DNA of 37,847 nt. Source: Ruminococcus flavefaciens (GTDB lineage: Bacteria; Bacillota; Clostridia; Oscillospirales; Ruminococcaceae). Under the pieces are notes generated by a model that saw only the letters and a program-made list of their open reading frames with translations, was not told the origin of the DNA and ran no database searches. The stretch's first letter is position 1, and every line of letters begins with the position of its first letter. Where the stretch lies: contig JAMPIL010000015.1 of assembly GCA_023662725.1 (NCBI GenBank), positions 1-37,847 on the forward strand, read 5' to 3'. Positions 17,878-37,847 of the stretch are shown here, piece by piece. A program made the translations under genes and the position numbers.

Positions 17878-18258
17878 TTAATCGTTTTCTCTCATTTGAT
17901 CGATTACGTCCTGAGCCTCTTTTAGTATCTCTTCCTCTGTTTTAGAAGAGTTTAAAGTATATTGACGAAGTATCTTAGCTGCGTCAACACCGTCAACTAC
18001 ACCGTTGCCATCCATATCTCCGTATTCAACAATTGTATCACTGTATGGAATATCAGCAGGGTTTACATCGGATATCATTAATGTATAGTAGCGAAGCGTA
18101 AGAGTAGCATCAACACCGTCAACACGTCCATCAGCGTTTACATCGCCTACTTGAATTTCAGCGGAAGATTGGCCATTTTCTGTTTCTGCAAATGCTGCCA
18201 TAGGAGCAACCGTAAGTCCAAGTGCCAATGCTGATAAAAAAGCTGTTAATTTTTTCAT
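17878..18258 (-). CDS. Secreted dockerin-only protein
   Basis: 126 residues. The signal peptide ends near AAFA (residue 24). After a short linker comes a dockerin with two Ca2+ F-hand repeats, DVNADGRVDGVDATLTLRYY and DMDGNGVVDGVDAAKILRQY, then a charged helical tail. There is no catalytic or binding module besides the dockerin. The repeats carry G-V at positions 10-11 of both loops, so the module is internally symmetric, as expected of dual-mode cohesin binding. AGGAGG precedes the ATG at 18258; the upstream in-frame ATG at 18303 overlaps the previous gene. Follows that gene by 16 bp in an operon. Confidence 0.88.
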   Translation of the reverse strand: MKKLTAFLSALALGLTVAPMAAFAETENGQSSAEIQVGDVNADGRVDGVDATLTLRYYTLMISDVNPADIPYSDTIVEYGDMDGNGVVDGVDAAKILRQYTLNSSKTEEEILKEAQDVIDQMREND

Positions 18259-18274
18259 AATATTTACCTCCTGA

Positions 18275-19105
18275 TTAATCGTTATATATTTCATAGATAT
18301 CAACTTTACCTATGTTTCCGTCATAGCTCATATTAGATATTATTATTGTATAGTATCTAAGAAGCAGATCAGCATCTGCCTGTGAAATGAATCCGTCATT
18401 ATTCACATCCGCAGCATATGCGCTTCTTAAGTCCGGAATTTCATTTGTAAAATTTCCGTTAATATCCTTTATTTTAATATCACCGCCGCTTAACTCACAA
18501 GCTCTTAGCACACGTGTTGCATCAATACCGTCAACTACTCCATTACCGCTAACATCACCAACAAGATATTCGTTGGATTCAAGCATTTCAGGAGTATTTA
18601 TTGAACCTGTTCCTTGTGAGGGGTTATATATATATCCGTCATCCATAGTTGACACCATATCTGATATTGGAACAGTACGGAATAATATTTTTCCGGTTGA
18701 ATTAAAAGGATTGTTAACTTCCGTTCTTTCAACATAAAAAGCAACAAAATGACCATTTAAATCTTCATCATGACTTTGCATATACGTACACGTTGCAATG
18801 TTATCATCAATAATCTTGTAACCGTACATTCCATCAGCCATGCCTTCCATATCTTCTCCTTCAGATGATTTTGCAAATCTTAATCCTTCATCAAGAACAA
18901 CATGGAAACCGCAAGTTGCAAAAGCTGGCATATTTTCAATAACAACATCCGCTCGGATATCGCCGTCACTTTCAACAGTAAAATCCAGATACATTTTTGG
19001 TGCATAATCTGCCGCCTGAGCCGAAGACATATGAATCGTAGGTACTGCCGCTAACGTTACAACAGCTGCAAGACCCGATATGGCAGCGTGTTTAAACTTC
19101 TTCAT
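18275..19105 (-). CDS. Secreted protein with N-terminal beta domain and C-terminal dockerin
   Basis: 276 residues. Signal peptide to about residue 33 (SSAQAA). Residues 35-150 form a beta-rich domain (DIRADVVIENMPAFATCGF, VVLDEGLRF, HFVAFYVER) whose strand order resembles cohesin/cohesin-like or CBM folds; this is a pattern impression, not a motif match. The dockerin (about 183-257) has loops DVSGNGVVDGID and DVNNDGFISQAD, separated by an unusually long linker. No glycoside hydrolase domain. The ATG at 19105 has GGAG 8 bases upstream; the in-frame GTG 9 bases earlier lies in the ribosome site. Likely a cellulosome component of unknown role. Confidence 0.82.
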   Translation of the reverse strand: MKKFKHAAISGLAAVVTLAAVPTIHMSSAQAADYAPKMYLDFTVESDGDIRADVVIENMPAFATCGFHVVLDEGLRFAKSSEGEDMEGMADGMYGYKIIDDNIATCTYMQSHDEDLNGHFVAFYVERTEVNNPFNSTGKILFRTVPISDMVSTMDDGYIYNPSQGTGSINTPEMLESNEYLVGDVSGNGVVDGIDATRVLRACELSGGDIKIKDINGNFTNEIPDLRSAYAADVNNDGFISQADADLLLRYYTIIISNMSYDGNIGKVDIYEIYND

Positions 19106-19177
19106 AGTAATCACTCCTGAATTTTAATAAACCTTTATGATATAATATGCATAAAATGTATATTTTATCACAATTAT

Positions 19178-19318: not shown

Positions 19319-21121
19319 TTATTTTATAACTTTGTCCACACCTTCGATAGTAAACTCAATTTTCAAACTATCCTTAGGCATATTGATCTCAATGTTAGGA
19401 GCTTCAGTGTTGTAAATGTTAACAATTTCAATATAAAGGTTACCGTCACTATCCTCTGTTATGATTGGCTTGTCTATTGCAGTTACATCATTATCATAGA
19501 AAACAGCTACGTCTGAAATTCTCAGAGCATTTGTAAACGGAACATCAGTGCTTACAAAGAGCATATTAAATCCATCCGAATCGGAAGAGAAATCATATCC
19601 CGAAACTCCGACAGAGTATCTTCCGTCCTCTTTGATCTCAGCGTCAGTGAACGAAGCTCCGGTATCAATAATATCGTCCTTACCGTCTCCGTCCTGATCT
19701 TCACCCCACTTAATGAGCGTATTGAACCATTCTGTTTTTGCACCGTAATTTGAATCGCCGTAAGCATTTCTGAAAGTGTACACCTTGGTCTGAATACCGA
19801 AATAAGCATTAATTGCGTTTTTTGATTCAGCCGCTCCGCTGCTTACCGATGTTCCTCTTCCTGCTTGCGGATTCTTTTCACTAACAGCGTTCACGATCGC
19901 TGAAATTATTTCCGGCTGAGTCTGGGTTGCATCATTTCTGTCGAAAAGACCGAAACCGTATTGTCCATTATAACCATTATCCCAATACACCGGAGTAATT
20001 CCGTTTGCAGCAGCTGTTCCGGCGAGAAAGCCATTGTAGTAAACTCTGTTTTCGGCTATCTGATTAGGGATTCCGGCATTTGCAAGAGTTTTGTCGATAC
20101 ATCCGAATTCACCGATAACTACCGGAACTCCTTTATCAACGAACTGAGTTTTCAGCTTCTTCATCTGTTCTTCAATGTGATCCTCTTCACCCCAAGTAAC
20201 CTTATTTCGTGGATTCGCCTTATTCACATCAACGATTTCCTGTCCCTTGTCGCCCCAAAGGAAAGTTTTCTTACCTTCTTCGCCGCAGTAATCCCACGGA
20301 TCGTAGCAATGAACCGAAAGGATAATTCTGTTTTCACCTGAGGTATTATTATCGCTTGGAAGTTCAAAACCGTAGTCGCCGCAGGTATAGTCGATATTAG
20401 TATTCCAGCCCGGAACCATAAGCCAGCGGTGTGTATTTTCCGAACCCGTTCCACGAACCGTATCGACAAAAATCTGATTATAAGCGTTGATATTATCGTA
20501 ATACTCAGGAATCGGATCATGATATTCTCCATCAAATTCCTCATTCATACTTTCAAAAATAAGGTGTTCATCATAACCGGCAAATTTTTCGGCGATCTGA
20601 GTCCAGAGAGCCTGATATTTCTCCTTGATGTAATCCTGATCTTCACCGTTGCAAAGAAGCCAGCCTCCTGTAATAGAATTATAACCGTCGCCGTGAACAT
20701 TGATGATAATGTTAAGATTCTGATTATAACAATACTGAACAACTTCTTCCACACGATCGAGCCATGCCTCATCAACCTTATAACCATTGCTGTCGTCGAT
20801 CTTACTAAGATACGATACAGGAATTCGCACCGTTTTGAATCCGGCTGCTGCTACAGCGTCGATCATTTCCTGTGAAGCAGCAGGATTTCCCCATACAGTT
20901 TCGTTTGGATTCCCACCGGAATTGGCTTCGAGAGTATTGCCGTAATTCCAGCCGGCGCCAAGTTCTTCTGCAATGCTGTCGATCGAGATAGTGGGACTTA
21001 CCTCTTTTGTTTTTTCTGCCGAACCGCTTTCAGAGTTGTCTTTTGACGAACATCCGCTGAATACTGCGGCGGTCATTGCAGCGCTGCACACAACTGCTGC
21101 AATTTTTTTGTAGATACTCAT
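19319..21121 (-). CDS. GH5 endoglucanase, membrane-anchored lipoprotein with C-terminal accessory domain
   Basis: A 600-residue secreted beta-1,4-glucanase-type enzyme. Residues 1-24 are a lipoprotein signal with lipobox FSGC (C24), followed by a Ser/Glu/Lys linker. Residues about 45-415 are a GH5 TIM barrel, subfamily-4-like: NVHGDG (141-146), acid/base E194 in SMNE, HCY (271-273), nucleophile E338 in VIGEFGC, and W380. Residues about 435-600 form a beta-rich accessory domain, perhaps a carbohydrate-binding module; its DQDGDGKDD stretch resembles a Ca loop but is single and not a dockerin. Cello-oligosaccharide, glucan or xyloglucan activity cannot be distinguished. AGGAGG precedes the ATG. 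Next to dockerin genes but anchored by lipid instead. Confidence 0.92.
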   Translation of the reverse strand: MSIYKKIAAVVCSAAMTAAVFSGCSSKDNSESGSAEKTKEVSPTISIDSIAEELGAGWNYGNTLEANSGGNPNETVWGNPAASQEMIDAVAAAGFKTVRIPVSYLSKIDDSNGYKVDEAWLDRVEEVVQYCYNQNLNIIINVHGDGYNSITGGWLLCNGEDQDYIKEKYQALWTQIAEKFAGYDEHLIFESMNEEFDGEYHDPIPEYYDNINAYNQIFVDTVRGTGSENTHRWLMVPGWNTNIDYTCGDYGFELPSDNNTSGENRIILSVHCYDPWDYCGEEGKKTFLWGDKGQEIVDVNKANPRNKVTWGEEDHIEEQMKKLKTQFVDKGVPVVIGEFGCIDKTLANAGIPNQIAENRVYYNGFLAGTAAANGITPVYWDNGYNGQYGFGLFDRNDATQTQPEIISAIVNAVSEKNPQAGRGTSVSSGAAESKNAINAYFGIQTKVYTFRNAYGDSNYGAKTEWFNTLIKWGEDQDGDGKDDIIDTGASFTDAEIKEDGRYSVGVSGYDFSSDSDGFNMLFVSTDVPFTNALRISDVAVFYDNDVTAIDKPIITEDSDGNLYIEIVNIYNTEAPNIEINMPKDSLKIEFTIEGVDKVIK

Positions 21122-23418: not shown

Positions 23419-23448
23419 ATCACAAACTCTTTGAGTTTATGATATAAT
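23419..23448 (+). promoter_or_regulatory. Second -10 box in a hairpin upstream of the leucine-rich-repeat operon
   Basis: TGATATAAT with TATAAT at 23443-23448, 44 bp before the ATG; no good -35. It overlaps the hairpin TATCACAAACTC-ttt-GAGTTTATGATA (about 23418-23444), which could be an operator or RNA stem. Confidence 0.45.
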
Positions 23449-23491
23449 GATTGTGGCGATATTCTATTTTAAAATAAACGAGGTACAAAAA

Positions 23492-25696
23492 ATGTTCAAG
23501 CATAAAAAAATTGCAGCCTTTATTTTAGGACTGCTTATAAGCGTTTCAGCGGTTTCACCGATCTACGGCGCTTTTGCCGAAAGCGAAGAGGAAACTCCCG
23601 CAGCGACCGAAACTTCGGACGAAGAAGCTTCCGAAATCATCGTTTCCGGAGAATTTTCCTATTCCCTCACTCACGATAACACCGTCTGCATCGAGGACTG
23701 TTCAAGCGAAGAAGAAAATCTCGTAATTCCCGATACTATCGACGGTATCGCCGTTACAGAGCTTGGCAAACTTGCTTTCGGCAACGATATCGGCAAGCCA
23801 TACGAAACAATAACTCTGCCCGCTTCCATTGAATATATTTCATCAGACAATCCATTTGCAGTCTGCGACACCCTTAAAGAAGTGATTGTTGATTCTTCCA
23901 ATGAAAATTATATTGCAGAGGGCGGAGTGCTTTTCACTAAGGATAAATCAAAACTCGTCTGCTATCCGCAGAAAAAAACAGGAAGCAGCTATTCCATTCC
24001 CGAGGGAGTTTCCGTTTTAGGAGAAGTTTCACTTTATAACACACAGCTCAGCGAAATAACGTTTCCTTCAACTTTAAAAGAAATTCAATATTACGCACTG
24101 GGAAGCAATTCAAAACTTATCTCTGCTGATTTAAGCAAAACCGCTGTATCTTCTATTGGCTTATACGCTTTCACAGACTGTTCATCACTCAGCAGCGTTC
24201 TTCTTCCTGATTCTCTTTATGAGATAGCCGGAGCGGCTTTCAGCCGTTGTACAGCGCTTAGTGAAATAACTCTTCCGAAGAATCTCGGAATGATCGGACA
24301 GTATGCATTTATTAATACAGGACTTTCTAAAATTACTATTCCCGATTCCGTTACAGAAATCGGATACAGCGCTTTCGGCTATTCTCTTGACAGCGAAGGA
24401 AACGAAACTGTCGACAGCAATTTTATAATCATCGGAAGCTACGGCTCGGCCGCTCAGACATACGCAAATGATTCCGATTCCGAATACGATTACGCAAACA
24501 GCTTTAAATTCCGAAGCCCCGAACAGGACGCACAGATAACCGAGCAGCTTGCTCTTGAAAAAAGAGTTTTCGGAGATTACGAATATGCCGTTGTAAACGG
24601 AGAAGCTGTGATCACAGCCTGCGTTTCCGCTGATACCGTTCTCAATGTTCCCTCCGAGCTTGAGGGATTAACAGTTACAGCTGTTTATCCGGTAGCCTTC
24701 ACAAGCTGTACATCCGAAGAGATAATTCTTCCCGAAACGATAACATATATTCGTGAAATGTCGTTTTACAGCTGCGCTAATCTGAAAAAGATAACTCTTC
24801 CGTCAAGTCTTACGGAAATCGGAAACAACGCTTTCGACACCTGCACTCTTCTTGAAACTGTCGATACAGGCGGAGCAGTTACAATAGGTCAGAATGTTTT
24901 TCTGGATTGTCCCTCACTTAAAAATCTCACTATCTCAGGAAACTGCACTTCTATCGGCGCAGAAGACGAAGAACCGTTTCTTTATTGCTCTGCTCTTGAA
25001 TCGGTAACAGTAACCTCCGGCGACGGAATATATTCATCCGAAAACGGAATTCTTTACAACAAGGATAAATCCACGATAATCCTTTATCCACAAGCAAAAA
25101 CGGATAAAAAGTATAAAGCTCCGAAAAGCGTAAAAGAAATCGGACAATCCGCTTTTTATCACTGTAAATATCTTGAATCGGCTGATATTTCGGGAGTTGA
25201 AGTTTTAAAGGACTATGCTTTTGAGGGATGTGAAAAGCTTAAAAAAGTAAAGCTCTCTAAAAATCTTACACAGATAGGAGCCGACGCTTTTTACGGCTGC
25301 AAAGCTTTAACAAGTCTGCGTTTTTATGATAAGCTCACTTATATCGGAGAAGGAGCTTTCGGCGAATGCTACAATGAAAATGCCGATACGGATAATATCG
25401 ATCCGGAAATCACCGGCACAGACGAAAGCGAACCGCACGATGTGCTCATCGAGGGCTTTAAGATCTATGCCGATAAGGAAAGCATGGCTTATGAGTATGC
25501 GGAAAAGAGAAAAATTCCGATAGTAAGCGGTACCGTTCTTTTCCTCGGACTTAACATCCATAAAGGAATCCTGTTTGGCGGCGCAGGAGTTATTGCTGCG
25601 ATTATTGCAGCATTCATAACAAAGCTTATCGTTTCAAAAGCCAAAAAGAAAAAATCTGAAAATAAACAAAAAGAGGATAAAAAAGATGAAGAATAA
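23492..25696 (+). CDS. BspA-type leucine-rich-repeat surface protein with C-terminal membrane anchor
   Basis: 734 residues. Signal peptide to about residue 30 (AFAE). It is followed by many roughly 23-residue LRR_5 repeats of the kind TLPSSLTEIGNNAFDTCTLLETV, in two blocks separated by a divergent region around residues 325-375. Residues about 690-712 form a membrane helix (AGVIAAIIAAFITKLIV) and the protein ends in a Lys/Glu-rich tail, so the repeats lie outside the cell. Such proteins mediate binding to surfaces or host and bacterial partners; the ligand here is unknown. The ATG at 23492 has GAGG 9 bases upstream; the longer frame to 23447 has none. Overlaps the next gene by 11 bp. Confidence 0.9.
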   Translation: MFKHKKIAAFILGLLISVSAVSPIYGAFAESEEETPAATETSDEEASEIIVSGEFSYSLTHDNTVCIEDCSSEEENLVIPDTIDGIAVTELGKLAFGNDIGKPYETITLPASIEYISSDNPFAVCDTLKEVIVDSSNENYIAEGGVLFTKDKSKLVCYPQKKTGSSYSIPEGVSVLGEVSLYNTQLSEITFPSTLKEIQYYALGSNSKLISADLSKTAVSSIGLYAFTDCSSLSSVLLPDSLYEIAGAAFSRCTALSEITLPKNLGMIGQYAFINTGLSKITIPDSVTEIGYSAFGYSLDSEGNETVDSNFIIIGSYGSAAQTYANDSDSEYDYANSFKFRSPEQDAQITEQLALEKRVFGDYEYAVVNGEAVITACVSADTVLNVPSELEGLTVTAVYPVAFTSCTSEEIILPETITYIREMSFYSCANLKKITLPSSLTEIGNNAFDTCTLLETVDTGGAVTIGQNVFLDCPSLKNLTISGNCTSIGAEDEEPFLYCSALESVTVTSGDGIYSSENGILYNKDKSTIILYPQAKTDKKYKAPKSVKEIGQSAFYHCKYLESADISGVEVLKDYAFEGCEKLKKVKLSKNLTQIGADAFYGCKALTSLRFYDKLTYIGEGAFGECYNENADTDNIDPEITGTDESEPHDVLIEGFKIYADKESMAYEYAEKRKIPIVSGTVLFLGLNIHKGILFGGAGVIAAIIAAFITKLIVSKAKKKKSENKQKEDKKDEE

Positions 25697-27086
25697 ATTC
25701 AAAAAAATTCTTTCCGTATCTGCCGCTGCATTGTTATCACTGTCTATAGCGGCATCTCTTTCAGCATACGCTGATCCTGAAACAGCAGAAGAAGTTATAA
25801 GCGACGGTTCGTTTATTTATGACACCGTAGACGGCGGATACACTATTAAAAGATGTACCGCAACGATTATAACCTCCATTCCGGGTATCGTAAACGGAAT
25901 TCCTATCGTTGAAATATCCGAAGGAGCTTTCAGCAACTGCGCCGGTATAACTGAACTAAACATTCCCCAGACCGTAAAAAAAATCGGTTCGGGAGCTTTC
26001 ACATACTGTACCTCGCTTCAAAAAATCACCATCCCATCCTCGGTAACGGAAATACCGGATCAGGCATTTTTAGGCTGCTCATATCTTACGGATATAGAAC
26101 TTCCCGATACCGTTACAAAAATAGGCGATTCCGCCTTCGCAGTCTGCTCCCGCCTGACTGATTTTGAACTTCCCGATTCTCTTGTCGAGCTTGGCGATAT
26201 GGCGTTCAACTGCACCCCTCTCACCAATATTGATACGGAAGGCTGTGCCGGATTCGTTGTTGATGACAAAATACTTTACGACCGAAACAAAAAGGAGATA
26301 TACCGTGCCTTAAACGATATATCGGGAGATATCTATATTGCCGATTCTGTTGAAACTATAGGCGGCGGAGCTTTTTCGCTCTGCTACGGAATCGAAAATG
26401 TTTTTGTATCCGGTTCAGTTCAAACTATAGGAGATAACAGCTTCCGTGACTGCGTTTCACTGAAAAAACTGGATCTCACCGAGGGACTTTCTTCAATAGG
26501 AACTTGTGCGTTTATAAATAATATTTCTCTTGAAACAGTAGAATTTCCTCTGTCGCTCCAGTCGATAGGAGACAGCGCATTCATGAACTGTACATCGCTG
26601 AACAAGGCTATTTTTCAAGACGGACTCAAGTCTATCGGAGCAAACGCATTTTACGACTGCGAGAATCTCATGCAGGTAAGTATCCCGAAAACGGTTGAAA
26701 CTATCGGAGAAGACGCTTTCGGTAAAATTTCAGACGAAGAAGGAAATACCCTTAGTTTAAGCGGATTCAAGATGAACGTTTCATCCGGTTCTGCCGCAGA
26801 AAAATATGCAAAAAGCGACAATATCGAGCATACGGCGTCTGATAAAAGCCTAAAGAAAATCGCATTCATCATAATAGCTGTGGGACTTATAATTGCTGTG
26901 ATATTTTTTGCGGTCGTGCTTATGGCAAGAAACCGTAAAAGCGCCACTGCTGCTGCCAAAAAAGCGCAGAAAGAAGCTCTTGAAAAAGAAGCCGAGGAGA
27001 ATTACGTTAAGATCTTAGACGACTCCTCCGAAGACGATAATAAGAATTCCGATAAGAAAAAATCCGATAAAAAGAAATCAAAGTAA
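25686..27086 (+). CDS. BspA-type leucine-rich-repeat surface protein with C-terminal membrane anchor
   Basis: 466 residues, paralogous in plan to the preceding gene. Signal peptide to about residue 29 (SAYAD), LRR_5 repeats (for example IELPDTVTKIGDSAFAVC), a membrane helix near 393-413 (IIIAVGLIIAVIFFAVVLMA), and a charged coil-like cytosolic tail. The ATG lies inside the end of the upstream gene with AGAGG in front, showing tight cotranslation. A strong terminator follows, so the two make a two-gene operon. Function beyond adhesion or scaffolding cannot be inferred. Confidence 0.9.
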   Translation: MKNKFKKILSVSAAALLSLSIAASLSAYADPETAEEVISDGSFIYDTVDGGYTIKRCTATIITSIPGIVNGIPIVEISEGAFSNCAGITELNIPQTVKKIGSGAFTYCTSLQKITIPSSVTEIPDQAFLGCSYLTDIELPDTVTKIGDSAFAVCSRLTDFELPDSLVELGDMAFNCTPLTNIDTEGCAGFVVDDKILYDRNKKEIYRALNDISGDIYIADSVETIGGGAFSLCYGIENVFVSGSVQTIGDNSFRDCVSLKKLDLTEGLSSIGTCAFINNISLETVEFPLSLQSIGDSAFMNCTSLNKAIFQDGLKSIGANAFYDCENLMQVSIPKTVETIGEDAFGKISDEEGNTLSLSGFKMNVSSGSAAEKYAKSDNIEHTASDKSLKKIAFIIIAVGLIIAVIFFAVVLMARNRKSATAAAKKAQKEALEKEAEENYVKILDDSSEDDNKNSDKKKSDKKKSK

Positions 27087-32646: not shown

Positions 32647-33072
32647 TTACTTCCTCCTGCCGCAATTTTTATCAAATACCGGATTGCAGGCATAGAAATT
32701 TCGTGCATTCAGATTATCCTGTGTTATGCGAAGAGCTTCGCCGAATCTCTGATAATGGACGATCTCTCTTTGTCTCAGGAACTTAATGGGATCTCTTACA
32801 TCAGGATCGTCTGCAAGACGAAGTATGTTATCATAGGTCGTTCTTGCCTTTTGCTCAGCCGCCATATTCTCATGAAGATCAGTTATTATATCTCCTTTGG
32901 ACTGGAAATAAGCTGCTGTAAACGGAGTTCCCGATGCAGCTATCGGATAAATTCCCGTTGTATGATCTACAAAGTATGTGTCAAAACCGCTTGCTTTTAT
33001 TTCATCTATGGTAAGGTCTTTTGTAAGCTGATAAAGAATCGCCGAAATCATTTCAACGTGAGCTAATTCATA
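32647..33072 (-). pseudogene. 5'-truncated CotJC/manganese-catalase family gene
   Basis: About 142 residues of the C-terminal two thirds of a CotJC-like Mn-catalase protein, recognised by ELAHVEMISAILYQL, FDTYFVDHTTGIYPIAASG, AAEQKARTTYDNILRL and REIVHYQRFGEAL. Family members are about 190 residues; the N-terminal 50 or so, with the first metal ligands, are missing. Upstream the frame meets TAA at 33079-33081, and the internal ATG at 33051 has no ribosome site. It borders the dockerin array directly, so the truncation may date from that region's insertion or expansion. Confidence 0.8.
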
Positions 33073-33128
33073 CGAACATTAAAGATATACGTATATAGAT
33101 CATATATATCAATAAATAACTTAAAAAG

Positions 33129-33182: not shown

Positions 33183-33833
33183 TCAATATTTTTCGAAATA
33201 ATCAATTACTCCAGCTTCATATTTTTGAAGAAGCTCTACGTCTGCTTGATCTACAACACCATCAAAATTGACATCGGCAGCACGTTCTCCGTATGCATCG
33301 AGTTTATACTTTGTAGGGTTACCAAGGTACTGTATAATGGCAGCAGCATCAGCTAAGTCTACACACTTATCATTATTAGCGTCTCCAACCAGAACGGGAG
33401 TAGCAGTAAAACACTCAAGCCCCATATACTTACGATTTGCATCGAATGCGGCAGTTTTCGGTTCATTAGTAATCTGAAGAGCATCGGTTGTCCAGATAGT
33501 GGCTCTAAACATATTTCCGGGAGCAACAATAGCTCCGGGAGCACGAAAAGATGCATGAAAGCTCATGGTTTCACCTATGCTTGGACTACTGCCGCCTATA
33601 ATGTCTCCGCCGAAAGCTCCGGTTTCAACCTTATCAAACTCTACATTACCCTTGAATTTAAACTCCAGATCAGCCCACATAACTCCGGAATTAGCCTCAA
33701 CGTCGCAATATATAACATATGTATTCAATTTTTCGAATGAATCCGCCGCATCAACGGCAACACCGTTCACTATTGGCAAAGCGCAAAGTACGCCAGCAGA
33801 AACTGCGGATAAAACTTTCTTGAATTTTTTCAT
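33183..33833 (-). CDS. Secreted beta-domain/dockerin protein (array member 1)
   Basis: 216 residues. Signal peptide MKKFKKVLSAVSAGVLCALP to VDAA (about 31). The central domain (about 35-150) is unique among the array in detail but shares the strand plan NTYVIYCDVEANSG, AIVAPGNMFRATI and TAAFDANRKYMGLE. The dockerin has loops DANNDKCVDLAD and DVNFDGVVDQAD; residues at positions 10-11 are LA and QA. The first loop has Lys in place of Gly at position 6. The ATG at 33833 has AAAGGATG 7-10 bases upstream, as in every member. It is the last gene of the operon. Confidence 0.88.
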   Translation of the reverse strand: MKKFKKVLSAVSAGVLCALPIVNGVAVDAADSFEKLNTYVIYCDVEANSGVMWADLEFKFKGNVEFDKVETGAFGGDIIGGSSPSIGETMSFHASFRAPGAIVAPGNMFRATIWTTDALQITNEPKTAAFDANRKYMGLECFTATPVLVGDANNDKCVDLADAAAIIQYLGNPTKYKLDAYGERAADVNFDGVVDQADVELLQKYEAGVIDYFEKY

Positions 33834-33872
33834 AGTAAACATCCTTTCAAAATTTCATATTAAGACGTTCAC

Positions 33873-34520
33873 TTAAAAATTACTTATAGAGCCTGCTACA
33901 TAATACTGAATAAGCAAAGCATCTTCATCATTAACAACGCCGTCGTAATTTACATCGGCAGCACGAAAAGCTTTACCAAGCGGATATTTTGTTGAATTTG
34001 CAAGATGCTGTTTAATTAAAATTGCATCGTTTATGTCAACAATTTCATCACCGTCTACATCGCCTATCATGACTATATCTGGAGTTGCAACACCTTTACC
34101 TAAAAAAACATGATTTACATCAAAAGCAGATGGATCATTTACTTCAACCGGTATTTCTTTCCCAGGCTCTTTCGGTTCGGTTATCACTTTAACCTTAAAT
34201 ACCGTTCCTTTCGCTGCAAGGGCGCCGTTAGCCTCATACTGTGTTGCGTAAGATACTTTTCCGTCAACTCTTTTTGTTATATAAGTTCTCATATCACCGT
34301 TACCAAGATTGCCGTGCATAGCCTGAGCCTCATCTTCTCCATTATGAATCACAATCATATTGCAATACTTAGCTCCTGAATTTTCTTCAACATCGCAGAA
34401 TACCATATAAGTATCATATTGTCCTGGTCTGACAGCATTGGCAGCAACTCCATTCATCATTGGCAAAGCGCAAAGCACTCCGGCAGAAACTGCTGATAAG
34501 ATTTTCTTGAATTTTTTCAT
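33873..34520 (-). CDS. Secreted beta-domain/dockerin protein (array member 2)
   Basis: 215 residues with the shared signal peptide. Central domain DTYMVFCDVEENSGAKYCNM, NLGNGDM, TQYEANGALAAKGTVFKVKV, ending DPSAFDVNHVFLGK. The ANGALxxxGTxFKVKV segment resembles the late strand of cohesin-type domains. Dockerin loops DVDGDEIVDIND and DVNYDGVVNDED (positions 10-11: IN, DE). Very close to member 3 throughout, so a recent tandem duplicate. The gap to member 3 contains a second copy of the AAACATCCTTT ribosome-site sequence, probably left by the duplication. Confidence 0.88.
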   Translation of the reverse strand: MKKFKKILSAVSAGVLCALPMMNGVAANAVRPGQYDTYMVFCDVEENSGAKYCNMIVIHNGEDEAQAMHGNLGNGDMRTYITKRVDGKVSYATQYEANGALAAKGTVFKVKVITEPKEPGKEIPVEVNDPSAFDVNHVFLGKGVATPDIVMIGDVDGDEIVDINDAILIKQHLANSTKYPLGKAFRAADVNYDGVVNDEDALLIQYYVAGSISNF

Positions 34521-34562
34521 AATAAAACATCCTTTCATATAATTAATGGTTAAAACATCCTT

Positions 34563-35198
34563 TTAAAAGTGATTGATCAATTTTACTTCATACTGTTGTA
34601 TAAGCAAAGCATCGTCATCATTAACAACACCGTCGTAATTTACATCAGCAGCACGGAATTGTTTTTCTTTTAAAGGATAATCTTTGGGATTTGAAAGATG
34701 CTGTTTGATTAAAACTGCATCGGATATATTAACTTTTTTGTCACCATTTACATCTCCTATAAGCACCAAATCTGCCTTTACCACATCTTTATTTATAAAA
34801 ATATGATTTGTATCAAAAGCTGATGGAGTAGTTATTTCCGGTGCACCCGAATCAGTTACGACTTTTACTTTGAATATAGTTCCTGAAGCTGACAAAGCTC
34901 CGTTAGCCTTATATTGTGTGTAATAAGACACTGTTCCATCGACTCTATTTGTTGAATAAGTGTTCAGAGATCCGCCGCCAATATTCCCTAATATAGATTT
35001 AACTTGATCTTCAGCCGAATGATATAATATAAAGTCACAATGCATAACTCCAGAATTAGCGGGAACATCACAAAATACCATATAAGTATCCAATTTTCCT
35101 TCACTGGAAGCCGCATTAACAGCAACTCCATTCATCATAGGCAGAGCGCAAAGTACAGCAGCAGAAACAGCAGATAAAATCTTCTTAAATTTTTTCAT
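34563..35198 (-). CDS. Secreted beta-domain/dockerin protein (array member 3)
   Basis: 211 residues, sister of member 2. Signal peptide to about residue 30 (VNAA); central domain DTYMVFCDVPANSGVMHCDF, NIGGGSL, TQYKANGALSASGTIFKVKV, TPSAFDTNHIFINK. Dockerin loops DVNGDKKVNISD and DVNYDGVVNDDD (positions 10-11: IS, DD). The start chosen at 35198 is six codons inside the longest frame, because the earlier ATG is part of the AAAGGATG ribosome site. Confidence 0.88.
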   Translation of the reverse strand: MKKFKKILSAVSAAVLCALPMMNGVAVNAASSEGKLDTYMVFCDVPANSGVMHCDFILYHSAEDQVKSILGNIGGGSLNTYSTNRVDGTVSYYTQYKANGALSASGTIFKVKVVTDSGAPEITTPSAFDTNHIFINKDVVKADLVLIGDVNGDKKVNISDAVLIKQHLSNPKDYPLKEKQFRAADVNYDGVVNDDDALLIQQYEVKLINHF

Positions 35199-35234
35199 AA
35201 TAAAACATCCTTTCACATTCAGTAAAAATTAATC

Positions 35235-35885
35235 TCAGAAATGCTTGATCATACCAGCGTCATATTGCTGAATCAACAATGCATCAGCTTTGTCTACAAC
35301 ACCGTCAAGATTAACATCAGCAGCTATTCCATTATCTTTGAGGGGATAACCGGTTGGATTTGTAAGATTTTGTAATATAAGAGTAGCATCAGCAATATCA
35401 ACACATCCATCCTGATTTACGTCGCCTAAAAGATATATTTCGTTGTCTAACGCTGTCTTTGCCATACTATTGCCGTTTGCATTTTTTATAGCAACATTAT
35501 CACATGATATGAAATCATAAATATCATCGATTGATACAGATAAATCTCCAAGGAATTTAGTAGTAGCCGCTATACCCTCTTCTCCAAAAGCACTTCCGGT
35601 ATATGTTGTCTGAATTTTATGACTGGTAGTGTAATGAATTGAATTAAAGCTATTAGTACCACAAAGAGCAGTTTTCATACTTGGTTCTGCTATAAACATG
35701 GGATTATAATTGATTATACAGTCAAAATATGCAATCTTGGGATTCCGAACTATATTATACATTACAAAGGTATTTTTATAACCTTCTTCATTAGAAGCCG
35801 CATCAGCAGCAGCACCATTAATCATAGGCATAGCGCAAAGAACAGCAGCAGAAACTGTGGATAAAATCTTCTTGAATTTTTTCAT
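35235..35885 (-). CDS. Secreted beta-domain/dockerin protein (array member 4)
   Basis: 216 residues. The central domain (AYFDCIINYNPMFIAEPSM, ALCGTNSFNSIHYTTS, QTTYTGSAFG, KNANGNSM) differs from members 1-3 and 5-6 but closely matches member 7, three genes upstream. Dockerin loops DVNQDGCVDIAD and DVNLDGVVDKAD (positions 10-11: IA, KA). The ribosome site is AAAGGAGG, stronger than in the other members. Confidence 0.88.
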   Translation of the reverse strand: MKKFKKILSTVSAAVLCAMPMINGAAADAASNEEGYKNTFVMYNIVRNPKIAYFDCIINYNPMFIAEPSMKTALCGTNSFNSIHYTTSHKIQTTYTGSAFGEEGIAATTKFLGDLSVSIDDIYDFISCDNVAIKNANGNSMAKTALDNEIYLLGDVNQDGCVDIADATLILQNLTNPTGYPLKDNGIAADVNLDGVVDKADALLIQQYDAGMIKHF

Positions 35886-35899
35886 AATAAAACCTCCTT

Positions 35900-36535
35900 T
35901 CAGAAATGAGTTATAATATTAGCAAGATATTGTTGTATCATCGTGGCATCGTCTTCTGTAACAACGCCGTCCCCATTGGCATCTGCCGCACGAATATTTT
36001 TTAATGGATTTCTTGAAGGGTTAGTGAGGTAACTGCTAATGGCTACAACATCGCTAATACTTATTATGCCATCGTCATCAACATCTCCGACAAAAACAAC
36101 TTCAATTTTAACCGGATTATTACTCATCAATTTTAAGGAATTATCAAATGCGCTTGTACTATTTTTAACAATACCAGAATCGAAGTCATTTGCCGACAGA
36201 ATTTTTACAGTAAAAGCAGTACCGGGAGAGATCAAAACACCGTCCGCCTGATAAAATCCACCATACTCCATGTAATTCGGGGTCTGAATCTGACTGGTAT
36301 GAACATCACCTCCAAGATTTCCGATTTCCGTACTATCAACTTTCATGTTATTAAAATCTAAGCAAAACGAAATACGTCTTATGTTTGATTTCTCCGGAAC
36401 ATCATAATAAATTCTGTAAGTATTTCTATATGTATCGGATAAAACCGCTGCATTAACATCAACACCATTTACCATAGGCAATGAGCAAAGAACAGCGGCA
36501 GAAACTGCTGATAAAACTTTCTTAAAGTTTTTCAT
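35900..36535 (-). CDS. Secreted beta-domain/dockerin protein (array member 5)
   Basis: 211 residues. The signal peptide starts MKNFKKVLSAVSAAVLCSLP. The central domain (NTYRIYYDVPEKSNIRRISF, DFNNMKVDSTEIGNLGGD, GVLISPGTAFTVKI, SAFDNSLKLM) pairs with member 6. Dockerin loops DVDDDGIISISD and DANGDGVVTEDD (positions 10-11: IS, ED). Only 14 bp separates it from member 4. Confidence 0.88.
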   Translation of the reverse strand: MKNFKKVLSAVSAAVLCSLPMVNGVDVNAAVLSDTYRNTYRIYYDVPEKSNIRRISFCLDFNNMKVDSTEIGNLGGDVHTSQIQTPNYMEYGGFYQADGVLISPGTAFTVKILSANDFDSGIVKNSTSAFDNSLKLMSNNPVKIEVVFVGDVDDDGIISISDVVAISSYLTNPSRNPLKNIRAADANGDGVVTEDDATMIQQYLANIITHF

Positions 36536-36580
36536 AATAATACATCCTTTTAATTTAATATCAAATGATTATATGATCAA

Positions 36581-37213
36581 TCAGAAATGCTCAATATTTT
36601 TTACTGTATAATTTAAAACCATATCAGAATCTTCATTGGTTACAATGCCGTCATCATTAACATCGGCTGCCCTTAGGTTAATAGAAACGTTTTCGGCATC
36701 CATTAGATATCTGTTAATATTTATTGCATCCATTATATCAACCACACCGTCATTATTAACATCTCCCATAAGGACAACGTCAACAGTAATCGGGCTTGGT
36801 TTTATAAGGCTAAGAGATTTATCGAATCCCTGTGCCTGCATTCTTACCAAACAGCTGTTAAAATCATAATTTGTCGTAAATTTTGACGCAAACAATGTTC
36901 CTGGATTCATAAGAACCGTTGATGATTCAAAGAGAATTCCAAACTCCTCATAATCAGGAGTAGTTACCTTTGCGTCTGTCAGCGTTCCTCCAAGATTGCC
37001 TTTAATTATTGATTGTGCAACATCCATATCATTATAATCAATAACCAATGTCGCTCTTTTTATTCCGGAGTTTTTTGATATGTCACAATATACCTTGTAA
37101 GTATTAATTCTTCCGGATTCCGAAGCAGCATCAGCAGCGATACCGTTCACCAAAGGCATTGCACAGAGTACGGCAGCAGAAACAGCAGATAAGATTTTCT
37201 TAATTTTTTTCAT
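36581..37213 (-). CDS. Secreted beta-domain/dockerin protein (array member 6)
   Basis: 210 residues. Central domain NTYKVYCDISKNSGIKRATL, DYNDMDVAQSIIKGNLGGT, VLMNPGTLFASKF, FDKSLSLI, related to member 5. Dockerin loops DVNNDGVVDIMD and DVNDDGIVTNED (positions 10-11: IM, NE). The first loop is followed by AININRYLMDAE, lacking the NPxxYPLK linker seen in others. Confidence 0.88.
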   Translation of the reverse strand: MKKIKKILSAVSAAVLCAMPLVNGIAADAASESGRINTYKVYCDISKNSGIKRATLVIDYNDMDVAQSIIKGNLGGTLTDAKVTTPDYEEFGILFESSTVLMNPGTLFASKFTTNYDFNSCLVRMQAQGFDKSLSLIKPSPITVDVVLMGDVNNDGVVDIMDAININRYLMDAENVSINLRAADVNDDGIVTNEDSDMVLNYTVKNIEHF

Positions 37214-37257
37214 AATAAGCATCCTTTCAAATTATAACTTGCGATACAAACTGTTTA

Positions 37258-37847
37258 TTAAAAATGTTCAAGAACTCCTAAACAATATTGAATTAACATT
37301 TCCTTGTCTTCATCTGTTATTACACCGTCTCTATTTACATCAGTAGCACGAAAATCTTTTAATGGGTATGCTGCCGGGTCAATAAGATATTTGGTAATAT
37401 AAGTTGCATCTCCTAAATTTACATCACCACTTCCATCAACATCTCCTAAAAGAACAGCATCTAATAATAATGACGTTGGTGACATATTGTTTCCATTTGC
37501 ATTTTTTATAACAGGATTTCCATAAGATATAAGATCATAAATATCCGAAGTACCTAACGGAACCAGGAGTTTTGTCGTAGCAGCTGTTCCTGCTTTGCCA
37601 AAAGCTTTTCCACTGTAAGTTGTTTGAATTTTTCGGCTTGTAGTGTAATGAATAGAGTTAAAGTTATTAGTCCCGCAAAGTGCAGTTTTCATGCTTGGTT
37701 CTGCAATGACACTTGAATCATAACTGATTGTAAAATCAAAATATGCAATATTCGGATTTTGAACGTCATGATAAAGCACATAAGTATCATGAGTAGCCGC
37801 ATCAGCAGCGATACCGTTCACCAAAGGCATAGCACAGAGTACACCAG
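37258..37847 (-). CDS. Secreted beta-domain/dockerin protein (array member 7, cut by window edge)
   Basis: The 3' part, 196 codons or so, of a seventh member; the frame runs off the window through GVLCAMPLVNG, the end of the shared signal peptide, so the true start lies outside. Central domain AYFDFTISYDSSVIAEPSM, ALCGTNNFNSIHYTTS, QTTYSGKAFG is the sister of member 4. Dockerin loops DVDGSGDVNLGD and DVNRDGVITDED (positions 10-11: LG, DE). The array probably continues upstream, together with its promoter. Confidence 0.88.
   Translation of the reverse strand, partial: GVLCAMPLVNGIAADAATHDTYVLYHDVQNPNIAYFDFTISYDSSVIAEPSMKTALCGTNNFNSIHYTTSRKIQTTYSGKAFGKAGTAATTKLLVPLGTSDIYDLISYGNPVIKNANGNNMSPTSLLLDAVLLGDVDGSGDVNLGDATYITKYLIDPAAYPLKDFRATDVNRDGVITDEDKEMLIQYCLGVLEHF

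Follow-up and report, generated by a model that had tools for sequence, protein, structure and literature searches.

Seven small dockerin proteins in tandem

The stretch of DNA analysed here, called the window in the following, is the whole of a 37,847 nt contig (JAMPIL010000015.1) in a draft genome of Ruminococcus flavefaciens (3.11 Mb in 70 contigs). In our numbering of genomes (G), contigs (C) and loci (L) it is G000:C6. One end of the window is occupied by a tandem array of seven head-to-tail open reading frames (ORFs) on the minus strand, from 33183 to 37845 and with gaps of 14–45 nt. As an earlier reading of this DNA (the original prediction) had it, seven adjacent genes encode proteins of about 210 amino acids (aa) with a C-terminal dockerin, and Pfam Dockerin_1 is indeed found C-terminally and above its cut-off in all seven (E 2.6e-13 to 5.5e-10). 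All seven ORFs are open and six are complete (211–221 aa); as the window is a whole contig, the gene transcribed first lacks its 5' part, and the array comprises at least seven genes. The N-termini resemble signal peptides when judged by eye. A ribosome-site-like motif, AAAGGATG or AAAGGAGG, precedes an MKKFKK-like start in each of the six complete genes, and from the position of this motif the true starts of four of them are probably 9 or 18 nt downstream of those listed. Between the signal region and the dockerin lies a central domain that is interpreted below as a divergent cohesin and by which the genes fall into four types.

33183..33842, minus strand: array gene 1, type D, last transcribed; 219-aa ORF, likely start 33833; cohesin-like domain at about 33393-33725 and dockerin at 33183-33392
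33873..34538, minus strand: array gene 2, type A; likely start 34520; cohesin-like domain at about 34071-34415
34563..35216, minus strand: array gene 3, type A; listed start GTG, likely start ATG at 35198; cohesin-like domain at about 34764-35090
35235..35885, minus strand: array gene 4, type C; cohesin-like domain at about 35433-35774
35900..36535, minus strand: array gene 5, type B; cohesin-like domain at about 36095-36424
36581..37222, minus strand: array gene 6, type B; likely start 37213; cohesin-like domain at about 36773-37105
37258..37845, minus strand: array gene 7, type C, first transcribed here, 5' end cut; cohesin-like domain at about 37453-37788
37793..37847, unstranded: leader stretch of 55 nt, coding for a signal region and identical to the start of contig G000:C9
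33129..33159, minus strand: terminator-like hairpin of 13 pairs, 3' of the last array gene
32647..33051, minus strand: C-terminal fragment matched by the Pfam and NCBIfam manganese catalase models, which we read as the spore-coat gene cotJC; its break lies about 110 nt from the array end

The Pfam scan of the seven proteins gave no enzyme or carbohydrate-binding module (CBM) model, only dockerin, EF-hand-like and chance-level matches, and in the NCBIfam scan a cellobiosidase model remained far under its cut-off and matched over its C-terminal dockerin only, the rest being at chance level. These scans thus give no enzyme or CBM identity, in agreement with the claim that no glycoside hydrolase, esterase or known CBM is visible here, and the suggestion that the proteins are carbohydrate-binding subunits found no support. 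The array has a G+C content of 36.3% vs 42.6% for contig bases 1–33000. At the start of contig C9 the shared leader continues into a CHAP-domain protein (L211:3-932). The 55-nt identity is a likely cause of the assembly break, and an extension of the array past the contig end by way of C9 was dropped, as C9 enters the CHAP protein and holds no array gene.

The three parts of the proteins differ in how far they have diverged within the array. Signal regions share 53–94% aa and 67–92% nt identity, which makes them similar and not nearly identical as originally predicted, dockerins share 41–68% aa and 52–75% nt, and central domains 13–63% aa and 35–71% nt. The predicted sorting by central domain holds, with 63% identity between genes 7 and 4, 38% between genes 6 and 5, 57% between genes 3 and 2 and gene 1 standing alone; between types identity falls to 13–28%. 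In two of the six pairs of neighbouring genes the synonymous divergence (dS) of the signal region is low, i.e., 0.27 (over 17 codons only) and 0.29, with dS above 1 in their centres; in the other four pairs the signal-region dS is 0.53–1.23. Since low signal dS stands beside unlike centres and the leader is also found on C9, these numbers, small as they are, hint that the 5' ends of array genes may have been exchanged or gene-converted.

A second species, represented by a metagenome-assembled Ruminococcus genome from roe deer cecum (G050), has a four-gene array at the corresponding site, and two genes of that array are clear orthologs of window genes.

L046:3839-4489, in the G050 array: ortholog of array gene 2
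L046:2512-3162, in the G050 array: ortholog of array gene 4

For the central domains of the two pairs nonsynonymous over synonymous divergence (dN/dS) is 0.14/0.27 and 0.09/0.28 (a ratio of about 0.3–0.5), so that the central domain is constrained, with purifying selection acting on both. Rapid positive selection is not seen in these two pairs, which lends no support to a displayed variable repertoire if this is taken to mean fast diversification.

The central domain and the host cellulosome

Two profiles were made of the central domain, A8 from 26 domains and A13 from 31. A13 was compared with 485 proteins from family loci, loci fetched with A8, loci of cohesins found with Pfam, and their neighbours. 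Forty-four family rows come first at E <=2.8e-25, many of them repeat copies of one gene, and the next 18 rows represent 16 distinct proteins at E 1e-11 to 1e-4. In each of the ten of these 16 that were scanned, the Pfam cohesin model PF00963 lies over the residues matched by A13; of these ten, L128 entered the set as a Pfam cohesin and the other nine through the family's own profiles. A control with A13 reversed by rows gave no match at E <=0.01 among the 485 proteins. With hhalign, A13 aligns to 34 cohesins over 96 columns (probability 94, E 1.3e-7), and all eight matches of A8 in the PDB (E up to 10) are cohesin or scaffoldin chains, at E 0.018–0.76. Because of the A13 matches, the Pfam overlap in ten of ten proteins, the hhalign result and the empty reversed control, the central domain can be regarded by homology as a highly divergent cohesin, and the cohesin-type strands and small adaptor scaffoldins of the original prediction are both supported. 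Small dockerin proteins of a QQNTWRF type (L061:355-978, L056:1459-2085 and L089:4624-5238), which occur beside family members in G108 and G382 as well as in the window's genome, are borderline cohesin-like (A13 E just 0.003–0.03) and were left out of the family.

The original prediction presupposed that the genome encodes cohesins. Eight are found above the Pfam cut-off, all in a single cluster (C11:1202438-1208213), and one weak match below the cut-off lies elsewhere. In gene order and architecture the cluster resembles scaC-scaA-scaB, and we take its genes to be scaC, scaA, and scaB. The ScaC-like gene (L014:7450-8355, 301 aa) lies inside this cluster and the array outside it, so the array genes are ScaC-like and not ScaC itself. 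Dockerins give 80 matches in the genome at E <=0.001. The array dockerins were compared with 24 non-family stretches, some of them overlapping, from the sca cluster and the 30 top-ranking loci of the own genome; for gene 34563-35216 the dockerin of ScaC is the best of the 24 (49% identity), and for gene 35235-35885 it ranks third. Cohesins are present in 124 of the 125 genomes of the genus that were searched, including all 13 with a match to family profile A3.

Because a cohesin as central domain is combined with a C-terminal dockerin, the architecture is that of ScaC, which in its published description binds ScaA and carries a divergent cohesin that binds dockerins (PMC2930009). We consider it probable, with moderate confidence, that the array is a set of ScaC-like adaptor scaffoldins that widens protein recruitment to the cellulosome. 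The proteins would be secreted, the dockerin would plug into a scaffoldin cohesin of the cell-bound cellulosome, and the divergent cohesin on the N-terminal side would serve as a socket, altered in specificity, for a further protein with a dockerin. As the types differ mainly in this cohesin, the array would enlarge the range of proteins open to recruitment.

Several observations weigh against this interpretation. The Pfam cohesin model matches none of the seven array proteins, an hhalign comparison with nine own-genome cohesins gave no signal, and the A13 model has 115 positions vs 139 in the Pfam cohesin. The PDB matches are singly weak, and for A13 only five of seven are cohesins, with a best E of 0.076. 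In the reciprocal search, with a cohesin profile, no more than four family rows reach E <1e-3 (the best 1e-5), and among the window genes the best value is 0.0011 (37258-37845), the others being at 0.8–7 or unlisted. The 485 proteins are no random sample, since some loci were retrieved with the family's own profile and others as Pfam cohesins; L128, one of the ten scanned, and L108, outside these ten, are of the latter kind. Six of the seven array dockerins have their best match in a protein other than ScaC. Finally, profile A3 has matches in 13 of the 125 genus genomes, and the lack of a match in the other 112, some of them incomplete, implies that the family is not a core part of the cellulosome.

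Part of this evidence would also be expected if the cohesin fold had been kept for another job, i.e., if the central domain no longer binds dockerins but another ligand such as a glycan, the cell wall or a surface protein, its dockerin serving only to display it on the cellulosome. The identity of only 13–28% between types, the single invariant column of A13, the shortened domain and the weak reciprocal cohesin scores all fit such a change. However, the cohesin pattern is still detectable over about 96 columns, and the cohesin of ScaC shows that a divergent R. flavefaciens cohesin can bind dockerins (PMC2930009, as described there). We hold this alternative to be unlikely and retain the adaptor interpretation in what follows.

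Relatives, phages and broken sporulation genes

By our own count, 27 small members of the family occur at 17 loci in 12 of the 125 genus genomes; the thirteenth genome with a profile match (G045) has long multidomain proteins only, one of which was scanned and carries a Pfam cohesin. A family-wide draw of 396 genomes gave 16 with a match, several of these being ordinary cohesins. In one of them, from another genus (G382), four small dockerin proteins adjoin an AgrB gene and three of the four are members, i.e., there is an array in a second genus. One relative (L087:1202-1891) is fused and pseudogene-like. In a tree of central domains, of which the deep joins are weakly supported and the branches long, the type D gene 33183..33842 groups with phage-linked members of G083, G111, and G071 and with G108 (96/90), and the two type C genes group with a member at a prophage in G051, with G113, G323, one gene of the G382 array and the G050 ortholog (100/99). 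The types of the array thus appear to be interleaved with singletons, some of which are phage-linked. In the window's own genome, two short contigs (C53 and C63; L010 and L011) carry family members and have a 219-aa ORF in common, of which the copy on L010 contains a Big_5 domain. A dockerin protein is encoded on L010 as well and by eye resembles a papain-type peptidase, Pfam detecting the dockerin alone.

At six of the 17 genus loci a member adjoins phage lysis genes. In G083, G111, G071, and G051 an endolysin assigned with PHROGs directly precedes the member, and in G111 and G051 tail genes are found as well. G111 has a tail terminator, a major tail protein, a tape measure protein and an M15/GH25 endolysin immediately upstream of the member, and the endolysins of G083 and G071 are of this same type. 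The G051 locus has a tape measure protein, Dit, a tail protein, a methylase and an amidase endolysin, and its neighbouring ORFs recur in G049. In G035 a lysin fragment lies 3.6 kb from the member, probably in a lysin neighbourhood as well. On two short contigs (G116 and G092; 4.8 and 4.6 kb) a partial lysin adjoins the gene of a CAP protein, with no member there. Members thus appear to be missing from phage ends that are otherwise similar, which is the pattern that morons would leave. G083 carries two tandem members, each followed by a similar terminator-like repeat. No attachment sites were found at the phage-linked relatives, and a tRNA-end-like sequence beside the G116 integrase, sought as an attachment site among the loci compared, was found in G116 only. 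Two further observations concern what accompanies members. At the prophage end of G051 (L050:9197-10348) a protein with leucine-rich repeats, a transglutaminase-like domain and a dockerin is encoded 3' of the member, a second kind of dockerin cargo. In G323, another genus, the member directly precedes a methyltransferase resembling PD-Lambda-5_B and an ATPase with a weak match to PtuA (L090:6364-8728), which are a possible phage-defence pair.

The second recurrent setting is that of interrupted sporulation genes. At two of the 17 loci the neighbour of a member is a large serine recombinase, which in turn lies directly against a piece of a sporulation gene. In the own genome this gene is sigK; in G050 it is the dipicolinate synthase B gene dpaB, seen there by its C-terminal part only. 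The own sigK halves are on different contigs (G000:C33:107992-108330 and G000:C11:654696 onward, L060:14696-15089), share the 10-nt sequence ATTGAAAATG at the break, and one of them has a 573-aa serine recombinase beside it. The phage end in G083 abuts a truncated sigK. For cotJC, three of the 17 loci (the window array, the G050 array and one member of G119) have a C-terminal fragment that abuts the members or lies within 3.9 kb of them. In the window, the homology covers query residues 57–198 at 32650-33075, with the break in a codon region shared by many relatives, and the N-terminal half is found on C11 (192566-192784), after cotJA- and cotJB-like ORFs recognised by eye; a serine recombinase of 505 aa is encoded at this junction.

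Interruption of cotJC is common in the genus, mostly without an array. Thirty of the 125 genomes match the joined cotJC query along 194 or more of its 198 residues. Among the matches listed, a count by eye gives at least 25 genomes in which a C-terminal part begins near residue 50–59, one of these at a contig edge. Other parts start near residue 20 or end near 173, and serine recombinases lie at several junctions. cotJC is therefore likely a hot spot for sporulation-gene elements in this genus. In G051 a serine recombinase lies between its two halves, which are separated by 5.4 kb. Where both halves are on one contig (G051, G049, G018 and G040), no family member lies between them. A split target gene with a recombinase at the junction can be recognised for the own sigK, the own cotJC, and the cotJC of G051 and G049. 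The idea that the array resides for certain in a cotJC element was dropped, the own halves being on C6 and C11; since these contigs differ and the splits in G049, G018, and G040 hold no array, our claim is limited to the array abutting a broken cotJC.

This position beside a broken gene raises the question of whether the array consists of decaying adaptor genes left over from the past, without a current function. The pseudogene-like relative at L087 would be in keeping with this, but all seven ORFs are open, six are complete with their ribosome-site-like motifs, and dN/dS against the two G050 orthologs is 0.3–0.5, which makes decay a very improbable explanation. It is also conceivable that the proteins act for the benefit of the phages and recombinase elements on which they are encoded, either by shielding or occupying the cellulosome (e.g., against rival phages) or by rewiring the enzymes held in it. 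Such a device would agree with the six loci at lysis genes, with the lysin-CAP pairs that lack a member as moron cargo predicts, with the two loci at recombinases abutting sigK and dpaB parts, and with the PD-Lambda-5-like gene next to a member in another genus. On the other hand, there is no evidence for any effect on phages, no phage genes lie beside the window array, and another six of the 17 genus loci are outside any assigned mobile context. Moreover, four pattern scans in IMG/VR (47, 72, 234, and 154 stretches; types A and B not scanned) gave no confirmed relative, and neither did a tblastn search of INPHARED with one phage-linked member. We consider service to the carrier distinctly unlikely as the function of the proteins, and adaptor scaffoldins for the host cellulosome remain the preferred interpretation.

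Elsewhere in the window, further dockerin genes (a short dockerin stretch at 17971-18147 and a 279-aa protein at 18275-19114, minus strand) adjoin the ORF of a GH5 cellulase (19319-21121), and an adjacent pair of BspA-type leucine-rich-repeat proteins (749 and 466 aa) is encoded on the plus strand at 23447-27086.

Relation to known systems and implications

Proteins with a single cohesin and a dockerin have been described before. According to the published description, R. flavefaciens strains have 5–11 of them each, with a possible role as adaptors (PMC4081043), and the term undescribed system in the original prediction is for this reason too strong for the architecture, while it may still apply to the arrays and the link to mobile DNA. 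With the ScaC-type adaptor of R. flavefaciens the array proteins share the order of signal peptide, cohesin and dockerin, a ScaC-like dockerin in gene 34563-35216, and a host with a scaC-scaA-scaB-like cluster. They differ from it in a cohesin that is shorter and beyond Pfam detection, in size (about 210 vs 301 aa for the own ScaC-like protein), in their arrangement as a tandem array away from the sca cluster, and in having relatives on mobile elements. Strong divergence is also described for the putative cohesins ScaK, ScaL, ScaM, ScaN, and ScaP of strain FD-1, which were set aside there untested as too divergent (PMC5301203); the likeness is one of published description, which, as far as it goes, mentions neither a tandem array nor a phage link. 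Judged on sequence, the family is best viewed as a set of compact ScaC-like adaptor scaffoldins with divergent cohesins, tandem arrays and relatives on mobile elements, i.e., as a variant of a known adaptor architecture.

The settings of the relatives have counterparts as well. Sites behind the endolysin of temperate phages of Bacillota are known to hold cargo. The members found right behind an endolysin resemble the morons of Bacillota temperate phages in this respect, but here the cargo would be a part of the cellulosome, and the window array lies outside such a setting. Intervening elements in sporulation genes are known, such as skin in sigK and gin in gerE (PMC5595907, in its account of them). 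The serine recombinases at the junctions of split sporulation genes, and the short sequence shared by the own sigK halves, are as in these elements, whereas a dockerin cargo and, in Ruminococcus, the targets cotJC and dpaB set the present cases apart; also unlike skin and gin, the own cotJC and sigK halves are on separate contigs and of the G050 dpaB only one part is seen. Among the papers listed in literature searches combining dockerin or cellulosome with prophage, no title or abstract opening reports cellulosome parts on prophages, and among those listed for cotJC with prophage none deals with a split cotJC by title or abstract opening.

Cellulosomes are usually regarded as machines of the host. 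It is tempting to speculate, as a tentative extension that we do not consider likely, that in Ruminococcus of rumen and gut the temperate phages and the recombinase elements bring along cellulosome parts of their own, that lysogeny leads to the export of compact cohesin-dockerin adaptors that plug into the surface cellulosome of the host and rewire or shield it (a lysogenic conversion of the cellulosome), and that the chromosomal arrays are stores of the types gathered in this way. More generally, mobile DNA may be adding parts to the host cellulosome. If this is true, a patchy, arrayed and mobile-linked family of adaptors would mean that mobile DNA alters the content of a fibre-degrading complex. 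Profile A13 would at the same time serve to recognise cohesins that Pfam misses, and some of the dockerin proteins of unknown function may in this way become scaffoldins.

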